This document shows, in pieces, positions 1,402-55,442 of a stretch of DNA of 64,000 bases. The stretch's first letter is position 1; each line of letters starts with the position of its first letter. The translations under genes and the position numbers were made by a program. This DNA comes from Chitinophagaceae bacterium (GTDB lineage: Bacteria > Bacteroidota > Bacteroidia > Chitinophagales > Chitinophagaceae): positions 62,001 to 126,000 of the forward strand of contig JAIETM010000012.1 in NCBI GenBank assembly GCA_019745155.1, given 5' to 3'. Below the pieces are notes generated by a model. It had not been told where the DNA came from and did not search any database. It saw only the letters and a program-made list of their open reading frames with translations.

Positions 1402-1409
1402 CAAAGCTA
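1402..1409 (-). promoter_or_regulatory. -7 box of nadC
   Basis: Read on the minus strand the bases are TAGCTTTG, an exact match to the Bacteroidota -7 consensus TAnnTTTG. The four bases CGCC separate it from the nadC ATG. The -33 region would fall in the T-tract and stem of the upstream terminator; no TTG is seen there. Confidence 0.55.
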
Positions 1410-1851: not shown

Positions 1852-1961
1852 ACTTCTTTATTTCAGGTATTCTACCGCTAAAAATATGCCAAACACAGCT
1901 TAACTACTGCAGGATAAAGTTAAAGCCTGTGTCTCAATGAGAAATGCGCTAATTTCAGGCC

Positions 1962-7360: not shown

Positions 7361-7373
7361 GTTTCTTTGCAGC

Positions 7374-13107: not shown

Positions 13108-13127
13108 AGGTTTTGCAGTTTTCCGCG

Positions 13128-13154
13128 AAAAAAAAGTGAACCTGAGGTTCACTT
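13128..13154 (-). promoter_or_regulatory. Terminator-like hairpin in the ffh leader
   Basis: AAGTGAACCT (13134-13143) and AGGTTCACTT (13145-13154) are perfect ten-base arms around one base. On the minus strand the stem runs into eight consecutive T's (13135-13128). It lies between the predicted ffh -7 box and the ATG, at the expected 5' end of the mRNA. It may act as an attenuator, a 5' stabiliser or a terminator of upstream transcription. Confidence 0.5.
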
Positions 13155-13162
13155 AAGCGAGG

Positions 13163-13190
13163 CAAATATAGTTGATGGAGTTCGATCAAA
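13163..13190 (-). promoter_or_regulatory. Promoter of ffh
   Basis: TATATTTG (13170-13163, minus strand) is a perfect TAnnTTTG box. TTTG occurs at 13190-13187, giving a 16-base spacer that is shorter than usual. Transcription would start close to the outer arm of the leader hairpin. Confidence 0.5.
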
Positions 13191-14004: not shown

Positions 14005-14577
14005 ACGCTGATTGAGGTATTGATACTGATTGATCAACAATGATTCGATACGATCCCACTCCCTGAGTGGGATTTTTGTTGCAATACGGAGATAGTTACG
14101 CTCCTGCCAAACGGCTGCAGGTATTTGCTGAATAGGTTGGAAGTCGGCATGCCTGAGATCATTATTCCACTCATCCTGCCCAGTATCAAATAAAGTGCCT
14201 TCAGCCCATATGCTTGCCTCCAATGCTGCACGGTGTTTTTCCAGATAATCACCTTTCAGGTGCAAGACCACGCTTACATAGTTACCCCACCAAAAAAAAC
14301 AGCGGATGGCCAACACATGCTGGTTGCTGAACAATCTTGGATAATCCAACATCACCCAGGGTAGTTCCTGATACTGTTCTCCTTTGGATATTTTCGGACC
14401 AATAGCCTGCACTTCAGGCAAATCTTTCAGCAAGCCATTGGCAAGAATGGTTTGTGCCGAAGCACTCACCTCACCAAAGAGTTCCATCACTTTCTGGATA
14501 ATGCGGTTCTTTGTTAAAATCAGTTCCGCATTGGTCACCATTTCCAGTTCCCTATCTGAAAGCATTACATTTGCCAT
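13993..14577 (-). CDS. Conserved protein of unknown function
   Basis: Protein of 194 residues without signal peptide or membrane segment. It has a helical N-terminal third (LSDRELEMVTNAELILTKNRIIQKVMEL) and a Trp-rich second part (LPWVMLDYPRLF, CFFWWGNYVSVVLHLKG). I recognise no domain; its layout suggests a Bacteroidetes-specific cytosolic family. A TTTG-N20-GATATTTG promoter (14613-14582) ends four bases before the ATG, so the mRNA is probably leaderless. The gene is divergent from the LptF/G permease, whose start lies within this promoter. Confidence 0.65.
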   Translation of the reverse strand: MANVMLSDRELEMVTNAELILTKNRIIQKVMELFGEVSASAQTILANGLLKDLPEVQAIGPKISKGEQYQELPWVMLDYPRLFSNQHVLAIRCFFWWGNYVSVVLHLKGDYLEKHRAALEASIWAEGTLFDTGQDEWNNDLRHADFQPIQQIPAAVWQERNYLRIATKIPLREWDRIESLLINQYQYLNQRLTT

Positions 14578-14581
14578 GCAT

Positions 14582-14613
14582 CAAATATCCGCACAAGCAG
14601 GCAGGTGATCAAA
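14582..14613 (-). promoter_or_regulatory. Promoter of the unknown gene at 14577
   Basis: On the minus strand TTTG (14613-14610), 20 bases, then GATATTTG (14589-14582), one mismatch from TAnnTTTG. Four bases (ATGC) separate the box from the ATG at 14577. The -33 element overlaps the first codons of the divergent permease gene. Confidence 0.55.
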
Positions 14614-38479: not shown

Positions 38480-38512
38480 CCAAGGTAATATGAAAGCTTT
38501 AACTTCGTCAAA
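38480..38512 (-). promoter_or_regulatory. Promoter of the methyladenine glycosylase gene
   Basis: On the minus strand TTTG, a 21-base spacer and TACCTTGG (one mismatch to TAnnTTTG), ending four bases before the ATG at 38475. It overlaps the -7-like TAACTTCG (38500-38507) of the divergent EI24 gene. Confidence 0.5.
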
Positions 38513-41740: not shown

Positions 41741-41843
41741 GTGGCTAAAGATAAATGAAGAATTGGTCAAATTTTTGACGCTTTGACCATCGGTAATAAC
41801 CATTTGAATTATTAGTTGTTATTTAGTCACGCAAAACAACTTC

Positions 41844-44958: not shown

Positions 44959-45885
44959 TTAGTATTGTTTCCCTTTAATTGAATCGTACAGCGTCAGGTA
45001 ACTGATGTACCTGTTCTCATGAATATATCCTTCTGCAACCGCATCTTTCACCGCGCAGCCTGGCTCGTTGATGTGTGAGCAATTATTGAACTGACATTCA
45101 TTGATGTACTGCCGCATTTCCGGATAATAATGCGAAAGCTCCTGCTTGCTGATATCCACCAAACCCAACTCACGAATACCAGGCGTATCAATGATACTGC
45201 CGCCTCCGGGTATGTCAAACATTTCAGCAAAAGTGGTGGTGTGCATCCCCTTCCCACTCCAGCCACTCACCTCCTGTGTACGTAAACCCATTTCTGGAAA
45301 TACCGCATTGATAAAGCTGGATTTACCAACGCCACTATGTCCGCTCAAGAGTGTCGTCTTATGTTGCAACAAACCACGCACATCATCCATACCCCTACCT
45401 TCCAATACACTCGTAAGTAAGACAGTGTAGCCAATAGTAGTGTACATCTCCTGCCATTCTTCAAACAAAGCCAATTCTTTCTTGCGATAGATATCTGCTT
45501 TATTGACGATGAGAATAGCAGGAATATGGTAGGCTTCGCAGGAGATCAGGAATCGATCGACAAAACCTTGAGAAGTTCGTGGCTCTTTCAAAGTAATAAA
45601 GAGCAGGCTCTGATCAAGGTTAGACGCAATAATGTGGTGCTGCCAGCGGGTATGTGGCGAAGAACGTATTACATAATTGCGTCGATCATGAATATCAGTG
45701 ATGACTGCTGATTGTTCTGTTTCCAGCTCTTCTTCTATCTCTACATCATCCCCAACAGCAATAGGGTTAGTAGAAGAAATATCCTCCGTCTTAAAAACCC
45801 CTTTCAAACGGGCATTATAGCGTTTTCCGGCATCACTTTTTACCTGATACCAGCTACCTGTTGACTTATACACCCGTGCACGCAT
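44959..45885 (-). CDS. rsgA: Ribosome small-subunit-dependent GTPase A
   Basis: Protein of 308 residues. An OB-fold (about 1-85) is followed by a circularly permuted GTPase: G4 NKAD (128-131), G1 GHSGVGKS (182-189), G3 DTPG (233-236), and a C-terminal zinc knuckle with Cys264, Cys269, His271 and Cys277. RsgA tests 30S maturation. ATG at 45885 is used because MRARVYKSTGSWY matches the family; TATCTTCG ends four bases before it. Confidence 0.95.
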   Translation of the reverse strand: MRARVYKSTGSWYQVKSDAGKRYNARLKGVFKTEDISSTNPIAVGDDVEIEEELETEQSAVITDIHDRRNYVIRSSPHTRWQHHIIASNLDQSLLFITLKEPRTSQGFVDRFLISCEAYHIPAILIVNKADIYRKKELALFEEWQEMYTTIGYTVLLTSVLEGRGMDDVRGLLQHKTTLLSGHSGVGKSSFINAVFPEMGLRTQEVSGWSGKGMHTTTFAEMFDIPGGGSIIDTPGIRELGLVDISKQELSHYYPEMRQYINECQFNNCSHINEPGCAVKDAVAEGYIHENRYISYLTLYDSIKGKQY

Positions 45886-45889
45886 GCAA

Positions 45890-45897
45890 CGAAGATA
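45890..45897 (-). promoter_or_regulatory. -7-like box of rsgA
   Basis: TATCTTCG on the minus strand, one mismatch to TAnnTTTG, then TTGC and the ATG at 45885. No -33 TTG at the usual distance. Confidence 0.45.
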
Positions 45898-45962
45898 GGC
45901 GCAAAAGCGCGATTTGATGGTTTGCGCAGTTCCACAAAAAGACAGCAGGCAGGGAAAATCAA

Positions 45963-45970
45963 TATCTTCG
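45963..45970 (+). promoter_or_regulatory. -7-like box of ubiE/menG
   Basis: TATCTTCG followed by CACC and the ATG at 45975. It is the same octamer as the rsgA box on the other strand, in the same spacing. No -33 TTG is seen. Confidence 0.45.
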
Positions 45971-45974
45971 CACC

Positions 45975-46736
45975 ATGGGTCAATTTGCACACGATGAAGT
46001 AGTTCCTTTTGGCGATAGCCAACTGGAAAAAAAGGCACAAGTAGCACAGATGTTCGATAAGATCGCTTTTCGTTACGATTTCCTGAATCGTTTCCTGAGT
46101 GGCGGCTCCGACATTGTTTGGCGCAAGAAAGCGATCAAAGAATTGGGCAAAACCAACCCCAAACTGATACTGGATGTAGCCACCGGAACCGGTGATGTGG
46201 CCATCATGACGTGGAAGCAATTGAGACCTGAAAAAATCATTGGTGTAGATATTTCTAAGGGCATGTTAGACTTGGGCAAAAAGAAAATCAAAGACCTTGG
46301 CCTTAGCCATGCCATTGAGCTGCAACAGGGCGATAGCGAGCACTTACAGTTTACGGATGGCCATTTTGATGCAATTTCTGTGGCTTTTGGGGTAAGAAAC
46401 TTCGAAAACCTTGTTAAAGGACTCAAAGAAATGCACCGTGTATTGAAGCCGGGCGGTAATTTAGTAGTGTTGGAATTTTCTAAACCCAGACAAATTGGCT
46501 TCAAGGGTATCTACGATTTGTACATGACCCATATTGCCCCTGTATTGGTTCAGTTGTTTTCCAGCAATAAACAAGCTTATCAATACCTGAATAAAAGCGT
46601 TCAGGCCTTTCCCGAGGGACAGGATTTCTTAAACATTATGCATGAAGCAGGATTTACCCAAACGTATTTGAAAAAACTGAGCCTGGGCATATGCACCATC
46701 TACTGTGGTACAAAGTCTGCTTCCGCAAACCATTGA
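45975..46736 (+). CDS. ubiE: Demethylmenaquinone methyltransferase (UbiE/MenG)
   Basis: Protein of 253 residues. Class I SAM methyltransferase: motif I DVATGTGDVAI, FDAISVAFGVRNFENLVKGL and LKPGGNLVVLEFSKP, followed by the UbiE-specific DLYMTHIAPVL and YLNKSVQAFPEGQ. It methylates demethylmenaquinone in the last step of menaquinone synthesis. Bacteroidota use menaquinone, so MenG is the likely role. It is followed by an overlapping porT-like gene. Confidence 0.93.
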   Translation: MGQFAHDEVVPFGDSQLEKKAQVAQMFDKIAFRYDFLNRFLSGGSDIVWRKKAIKELGKTNPKLILDVATGTGDVAIMTWKQLRPEKIIGVDISKGMLDLGKKKIKDLGLSHAIELQQGDSEHLQFTDGHFDAISVAFGVRNFENLVKGLKEMHRVLKPGGNLVVLEFSKPRQIGFKGIYDLYMTHIAPVLVQLFSSNKQAYQYLNKSVQAFPEGQDFLNIMHEAGFTQTYLKKLSLGICTIYCGTKSASANH

Positions 46737-55372: not shown

Positions 55373-55442
55373 GGCGTAAATTTAGTTCACCCAATGCAGG
55401 CAGTTGAAAATATTTTTAAGCGCCTACATCCTGTAAACAAAA

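Follow-up and report, generated by a model that had tools for sequence, protein, structure and literature searches.

Does transcription of some genes in a member of the Chitinophagaceae begin at the start codon itself? The question is raised by a divergent gene pair in the 64,000-nucleotide stretch of DNA analysed here (the window), in which ubiE and rsgA are separated by an 89-bp spacer that carries a TAnnTTTG-like octamer close to the start codon (a near box) at each side. The initial annotation of the window had pointed out that the same octamer, TATCTTCG, followed by four bases and the ATG, precedes both genes, that this spacing recurs at nadC, engB, the gene at 14577, a glycosylase gene, ruvB and, weakly, gpmI, and that an M28 peptidase gene has its box at five bases. 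The letters, coordinates and spacings of all nine boxes were confirmed in the sequence (Table 1). Judged from sequence and position, the octamers are very probably -7 elements of the sigma-ABfr type, which would give leaderless or near-leaderless mRNAs.

Table 1. Boxes upstream of start codons in the window, with the two genes of the divergent pair
Feature	Position	Strand	Remark
Putative -7 box TAGCTTTG	1402-1409	-	4 nt before nadC ATG (1397)
Weak box TAATTTCA, 2 mismatches	1950-1957	+	4 nt before gpmI ATG (1962)
Putative -7 box TTTCTTTG	7362-7369	+	4 nt before engB/ysxC ATG (7374)
Box GATATTTG	14582-14589	-	4 nt before ATG at 14577
Putative -7 box TACCTTGG	38480-38487	-	4 nt before 3-methyladenine DNA glycosylase ATG (38475)
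Putative -7 box TATCTTTA	41746-41753	-	5 nt before M28 peptidase ATG (41740)
rsgA, ribosome small-subunit GTPase A, predicted leaderless	44959-45885	-	TIGR00157, 229 bits, above cut-off
Putative -7 box TATCTTCG	45897-45890	-	4 nt before rsgA ATG (45885)
Putative -7 box TATCTTCG	45963-45970	+	4 nt before ubiE ATG (45975)
ubiE/menG, demethylmenaquinone methyltransferase, predicted leaderless	45975-46736	+	NCBIfam NF001244, 258 bits, above cut-off
Putative -7 box TAAATTTA	55377-55384	-	4 nt before ruvB ATG (55372)

Profile matches confirmed the identities of nadC, gpmI, engB/ysxC, the 3-methyladenine DNA glycosylase (TIGR00567, PF02245), rsgA, ubiE, ruvB and the M28 peptidase (PF04389); for the gene at 14577 neither NCBIfam nor Pfam gave a match at the cut-offs applied. 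At 65-71% identity, uncultured Bacteroidetes, Niastella and Longitalea supply the nearest ubiE relatives in named records, other Chitinophagaceae ranking below them, and the organism is assigned to this family on that ground. An Rfam scan of the window returned nothing at gathering score.

Box positions in the genome of the window

The genome of the window comprises 3.17 Mb in 27 contigs, of which 864 kb (27%), namely the window and 800 kb from three other contigs, were used for gene-based counts. Genes were called with our own codon-usage program, whose choice of start is blind to upstream sequence, all starts being predicted. Leading genes, defined by a divergent neighbour or by a gap of 40 nt or more to a preceding gene on the same strand, made up 463 of the 604 genes; the other 141, on the same strand and less than 40 nt behind the preceding gene, were left out, as were genes that were shorter than 50 codons, scored low for coding or lacked an upstream neighbour within the joined stretch, and starts less than 80 nt from the end of that stretch. 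At the gene at 14577 the program took a later ATG (14541), and this gene therefore falls outside the sets of 31 and 52 box genes described below.

TAnnTTTG with at most one mismatch was found exactly 4 nt before the start of 31 of the 463 leading genes, against a far-upstream background of 4.66 per position. The peak persisted when the window was excluded (25/420, background 4.09). A separate run with the same gene caller gave 30/466, compared with 5.0 +/- 2.3 (maximum 14) in 300 dinucleotide shuffles, and in that run only 6 of 4749 internal in-frame ATGs had a box at this distance. Exact counts of TAHHTTTG-Nx-ATG over the whole genome were 54 for N4, 19 for N9, 14 for N10 and 35 for N18. N10 is a fair control for N4 because the codon frame is the same; N9, for which the frame differs, was dropped as the main genome-wide control. 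A scan of this kind, set against shuffled upstream sequence, had been suggested at the outset, and both the 864-kb counts and the whole-genome pattern counts turned out clearly positive. The idea that the window is special within its genome was rejected, its share of near boxes not being significantly higher than that of the remainder (7/43 vs 45/420, p = 0.31).

Box positions before the 463 leading genes are bimodal: a peak at 4 nt is followed by a trough at 7-12 nt, and a second mode lies at about 14-23 nt, for which boxes were counted over 13-26 nt. Observed and expected numbers were 53 vs 18.6 at 3-6 nt, 15 vs 27.9 at 7-12 nt and 132 vs 65.2 at 13-26 nt. An expectation-maximization (EM) model, seeded with the known TAnnTTTG consensus, assigned 50.8 of these genes to boxes at 3-6 nt, 8.1 to 7-12 nt, 114.0 to 13-26 nt and 32.7 to positions farther upstream, and no box to more than half of the 463. 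The near class thus amounts to 11% of the 463 genes, or 25% of those with an assigned box, and to about 7% by simple excess. In 20 shuffled sets analysed with the position weight matrix fixed, the assignment at 3-6 nt averaged 1.75 and reached at most 4.96. The weak gpmI box received an EM posterior of 0.77-0.79. On 100-kb samples the model overfits (λ near 1 in several), and such fits were not used for shares.

The EM consensus reads TA..TTTGc, with G in 11% and 3% at the two n positions; a sigma-ABfr-type core, that is TAnnTTTG with G disfavoured at these positions, is therefore found in this genome. Near boxes (n = 52) have G at the n positions in 8% and 10% and far boxes (n = 125) in 18% and 10%, and the base right after the box is C in 52% and 46%, respectively. 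Only such free positions inform on the likeness of the two sets, because the same motif picked both, and their resemblance is partly by construction. Leadered genes (n = 107) have 50-60% A at -12 to -10, the place that the near box takes in the other class. Of the 44 near-box genes in the run concerned, 57% have C and 2% have G at position -1; the start codon is ATG in 50/52 near-box genes, compared with 360/411 of the other genes. In the leadered promoters the fifth base after the box is not clearly a purine, and the base at which transcription starts is therefore not fixed by sequence.

The initial annotation had also noted TTTG at 20-21 bases from two of the nine boxes. This is literally correct (a gap of 20 at the gene at 14577 and of 21 at the glycosylase gene), but no signal of the class stands behind it: among the 52 near-box genes TTTG occurs at gap 20 in none and at gap 21 in two, a number that several other gaps match or exceed, and a -33 TTTG peak is absent from these 52 and from the 107 leadered genes alike. 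Since this element is weak in Flavobacterium johnsoniae too (PMC6847099), it was not treated as required for a -7 box.

Conservation by gene within Chitinophagaceae

Orthologues of five box genes and of one control gene, ffh, were compared in one locus per genus. Each set held 30 loci including the window. Family genomes with a match numbered 38 for ruvB, 40 for ffh and 39 for each of the remaining genes, and the loci are those of the best 30. The ATG nearest to the aligned start was preferred, so that start-codon counts in these sets mean little, and near boxes were sought 3-8 nt before the start. With the window excluded, a near box was present at ubiE in 28/29 relatives (at 4-8 nt), at nadC in 21/29, at ruvB in 19/29, at engB in 11/29 and at rsgA in 10/29, each in loci from the best 30 of 39 genomes (38 for ruvB), and at ffh, the sole control, in 0/29 (best 30 of 40). 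Conservation is thus specific to the gene, engB and rsgA forming a counterpoint in which only about a third of these relatives have the box. The lone exception at ubiE (L215, among the best 30 of 39) has TATCTTCG 9 nt before the ATG. Thirteen named ubiE loci (L041-L053), which may overlap with the genome set, all have a box at 5-7 nt; the remaining four of 17 were left out, L054 for its 51% identity and L055-L057 for titles naming Syntrophorhabdaceae and Micrarchaeota.

An exact spacing of four bases, as emphasized in the initial annotation, is the mode in the genome of the window but does not hold across relatives, where the distance spans 3-8 nt; it is a mode and not a law. Four is favoured at nadC (13 loci, best 30 of 39) and ruvB (12 loci, best 30 of 38), whereas at ubiE the mode is 7: the 29 boxes, window included, lie at 4 (3), 5 (6), 6 (8), 7 (11) and 8 nt (1) in loci from the best 30 of 39 genomes.

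A leaderless gene should have no separate promoter upstream from which a leadered mRNA would be made. In relatives, with ffh left out, a second box at 13-30 nt accompanied 17/102 near boxes, compared with 24/56 starts without one (p = 0.0006); with ffh included, the latter figure became 36/85 (p = 0.0002). Since the second box is rarer beside a near box, the latter may tend to stand in for the promoter normally used. Within the genome of the window there is no such signal (a far box with at most one mismatch in 13/52 near-box genes vs 124/411 others, p = 0.52), and the exclusivity therefore rests on the orthologues. The codons directly after the ATG of ruvB are alike in most of the listed relatives, which makes this ATG probably the true start.

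A second genus of the family, G115, was sampled over 320 kb. A box stands at 4 nt in 17 of its 166 leading genes, boxes at 3-6 nt number 27 vs 5.1 expected, and the near class makes up 18% of the 166 genes by EM, or about 13% by excess. Samples of 100 kb gave 3 boxes at 3-6 nt vs 0.9 expected in G033, 3 vs 5.1 in G057, and no box at 4 nt in G041, although the whole-genome ratio of the latter is high; shares for other genomes are uncertain because these three samples are weak or negative.

Several observations on the same loci may be recorded here. At engB, TAnnTTGY in place of TAnnTTTG stands 3-7 nt before the ATG in 8 of the best 30 loci (L242, L244, L249, L254, L256, L264, L268 and L270). 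This is the motif of the SM5 promoters of Flavobacterium psychrophilum (PMC9723704), and these letters may mean that the sigma type was exchanged at a gene that would remain leaderless; in the genome of the window TAnnTTGY is not enriched before starts (2/463 at 3-6 nt). In family f1, engB adjoins ubiE on the opposite strand in about 20 of 40 genomes, as judged from match coordinates and mostly within about 150 bp (e.g. G168:C299, G174:C7 and G091:C4), the place held by rsgA in the window genome. Just upstream of the ubiE box, loci L043-L049 (Niastella, Longitalea) carry low-complexity runs of the caaaccacaaactataaac type or its complement. The gene ffh was chosen as a leadered control on account of a box that EM placed at 18 nt; the exact box is really 55 nt upstream, the EM call is probably wrong, and ffh still looks leadered. 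Between that exact -7 box and the start (13108-13170, minus strand) lies a terminator-like hairpin, AGTGAA...TTCACT followed by a T run (-14.6 kcal/mol, z -2.7 in the window). The pattern recurs 9-16 nt after the box in 9 of the best 30 family loci (L121, which is the window, L123, L125, L127, L133, L135, L137, L141 and L145), and by eye L131 and L132 have similar arms with changed letters; an attenuator or autoregulatory element is possible.

Proposed promoter function and alternative explanations

In the mechanism proposed here, TAnnTTTG would be the -7 element of the Bacteroidota housekeeping promoter (sigma-ABfr-type), and transcription would start on the A of the ATG or a few bases from it. 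RNA-seq of F. johnsoniae placed the transcription start site (TSS) 4 or 5 nt from the -7 box in 241 of 434 candidates (PMC6847099); given this distance, a box 4 nt before the ATG would put +1 on the A. The resulting mRNA would be leaderless or nearly so, the ribosome entering at its 5'-terminal AUG without a leader signal, and where the spacing in relatives is wider than four, some mRNAs would have leaders of 1-4 nt. Far-box genes (13-26 nt) would use the same promoter and have short leaders with an A-rich stretch at about -12 to -10. Translation in Bacteroidota does not depend on Shine-Dalgarno pairing (PMC6847099, PMC10783764), which fits the leaderless reading. We infer the use of the box as a promoter, the exact TSS and, by analogy with leaderless mRNAs in general, the recruitment of the ribosome by the 5'-terminal AUG alone; the prediction made in the initial annotation is supported by the excess in the scan, the box distance of F. 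johnsoniae and the conservation in the family. The observation is real; as a class of genes with the promoter at the start codon it is well supported, and it is ordinary in kind.

The near box might instead be a translation-initiation element, Kozak-like or ribosome-binding, of leadered mRNAs whose true promoter lies farther upstream. Kozak-like sequences are reported to tune initiation in F. johnsoniae (PMC6847099), and near-box genes in the window's genome have a further box 13-30 nt upstream about as often as other genes. Yet the near box does not resemble the A-rich signal that leadered genes of the same genome have at -12 to -10, it fits the consensus of the promoter and stands as far from the start codon as the promoter element does from +1 (PMC6847099), far boxes are rarer beside it in relatives, and the short spacer of ubiE and rsgA has one on both sides; we regard this explanation as improbable. 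It might also be that the true start codons lie downstream, the box-adjacent ATG being merely part of a short leader. Start codons are indeed predicted ones, and at nadC the start of relatives is often one or two codons from that of the window (+3 or +6 nt, best 30 of 39). A shift of this size gives no ordinary leader, however, and in most orthologues of ruvB, ubiE and engB the alignment begins within query residues 1-5, an ATG standing at the predicted start or close to it, all of which makes downstream starts very improbable.

Chance has a stronger claim on single genes than on the class. The motif is degenerate, the boxes were picked by eye in one window with few genes, and gpmI has only TAATTTCA; single cases, gpmI foremost, may be chance matches. 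As an account of the class as a whole, chance is refuted by the persistence of the peak outside the window, by the whole-genome counts, by the second genus and by the conservation among orthologues; it is scarcely credible as the general explanation. The preferred reading remains a -7 element next to the start codon. A further step, which we hold only tentatively and rather doubt than believe, is that this amounts to a gene-specific leaderless programme: an inherited housekeeping set with the -7 box fused to the ATG, derived in Chitinophagaceae, perhaps for translation independent of the leader-reading ribosome machinery of Bacteroidota, which hides the anti-Shine-Dalgarno sequence. Its basis is the box at ubiE in nearly every genus sampled and at nadC and ruvB in most, together with the finding that most ubiE loci sampled from other families of the class lack a near box.

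Known leaderless genes and spread in the phylum

The -7 consensus found here is that of the sigma-ABfr -33/-7 promoters (TTTG / TAnnTTTG) of Bacteroides fragilis, F. johnsoniae and Bacteroides thetaiotaomicron, and the distance from box to start is that of many F. johnsoniae promoters (PMC6847099, PMC7366714). Unlike in those systems, the ATG itself is here the point from which a class of boxes keeps a fixed distance; at the n positions G is infrequent though present, while it is virtually zero in F. johnsoniae (PMC6847099). In that species 87% of genes with a probable promoter have a leader longer than 10 nt, which by subtraction leaves 13% with leaders of 10 nt or less (PMC6847099).

Leaderless mRNAs are already known in Bacteroidota, as the initial annotation had stated. 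They account for 5.5% of the mRNAs of 890 coding sequences with mapped TSSs in F. psychrophilum (PMC9723704), and about 3.7% of 5' untranslated regions are shorter than 10 nt in B. thetaiotaomicron (PMC7366714). These cases from the same phylum were found by experiment, whereas ours are predicted, and the EM shares of 11% (window genome) and 18% (G115) have denominators that differ from those of the papers; a further difference is that the mode is kept here for given genes across genera. In a survey of 953 bacteria, leaderless genes were reported in 1/37 Bacteroidetes/Chlorobi genomes (2.4%), a figure perhaps underestimated for Bacteroidetes since only Pribnow-like boxes were sought (Zheng et al., 2011; PMC3160421). 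The TA-led leaderless genes of that survey, commonest in Actinobacteria and Deinococcus-Thermus, likewise have the promoter core at a fixed distance, about 10-12 bp before the start codon; theirs is a Pribnow box and ours TAnnTTTG (PMC3160421). Leaderless mRNAs were one reading given to base biases in Bacteroidetes (Nakagawa 2017; PMC5397173), and in StartLink the FCB group is handled as one with AT-rich ribosome-binding sites (PMC9581028).

Our literature search, with most subscription journals outside its reach, found no report on leaderless genes in Chitinophagaceae or Chitinophaga. As far as these searches go, what is new is the share in the window genome and in G115 and the gene-specific conservation across the family. 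If true, the inheritance of a sizeable class of leaderless genes in one family would correct the Pribnow-based 1/37 picture. It would also allow better gene-start calling in the family, because the start codon is marked by a -7 box 4 nt ahead of it, and would provide a natural gene set for studying how ribosomes with a hidden anti-Shine-Dalgarno sequence choose between leadered and leaderless mRNAs.

Outside the family but within the class, ubiE has a box at 3-8 nt in 8/28 loci (28 of 55 genomes with a match, one of the 28 without a located start), and several of the eight boxes precede GTG or TTG or have weak letters. Across 148 sampled genomes of the phylum, N4/N10 ratios are 3.9 for the genome of the window, 2.0 for six other family members pooled and 1.6-4.3 for eight other families of the class, three of them represented by single genomes. 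For three families of other classes, hand-picked subsets gave 1.2, 1.4 and 1.0; the sums made by hand covered 10/30 genomes of f15, 10/18 of f21 and 8/13 of f14. In G070, also of another class, 3/33 genes have a box at 5 nt. The highest ratio of the groups summed, 5.8 (202 vs 35), belongs to f22, a family of another class (G027, G059, G086, G101, G105, G113, G136 and G144); G144, sampled over 280 kb, has 8 boxes at 3-6 nt before its 122 leading genes, compared with 3.2 expected.
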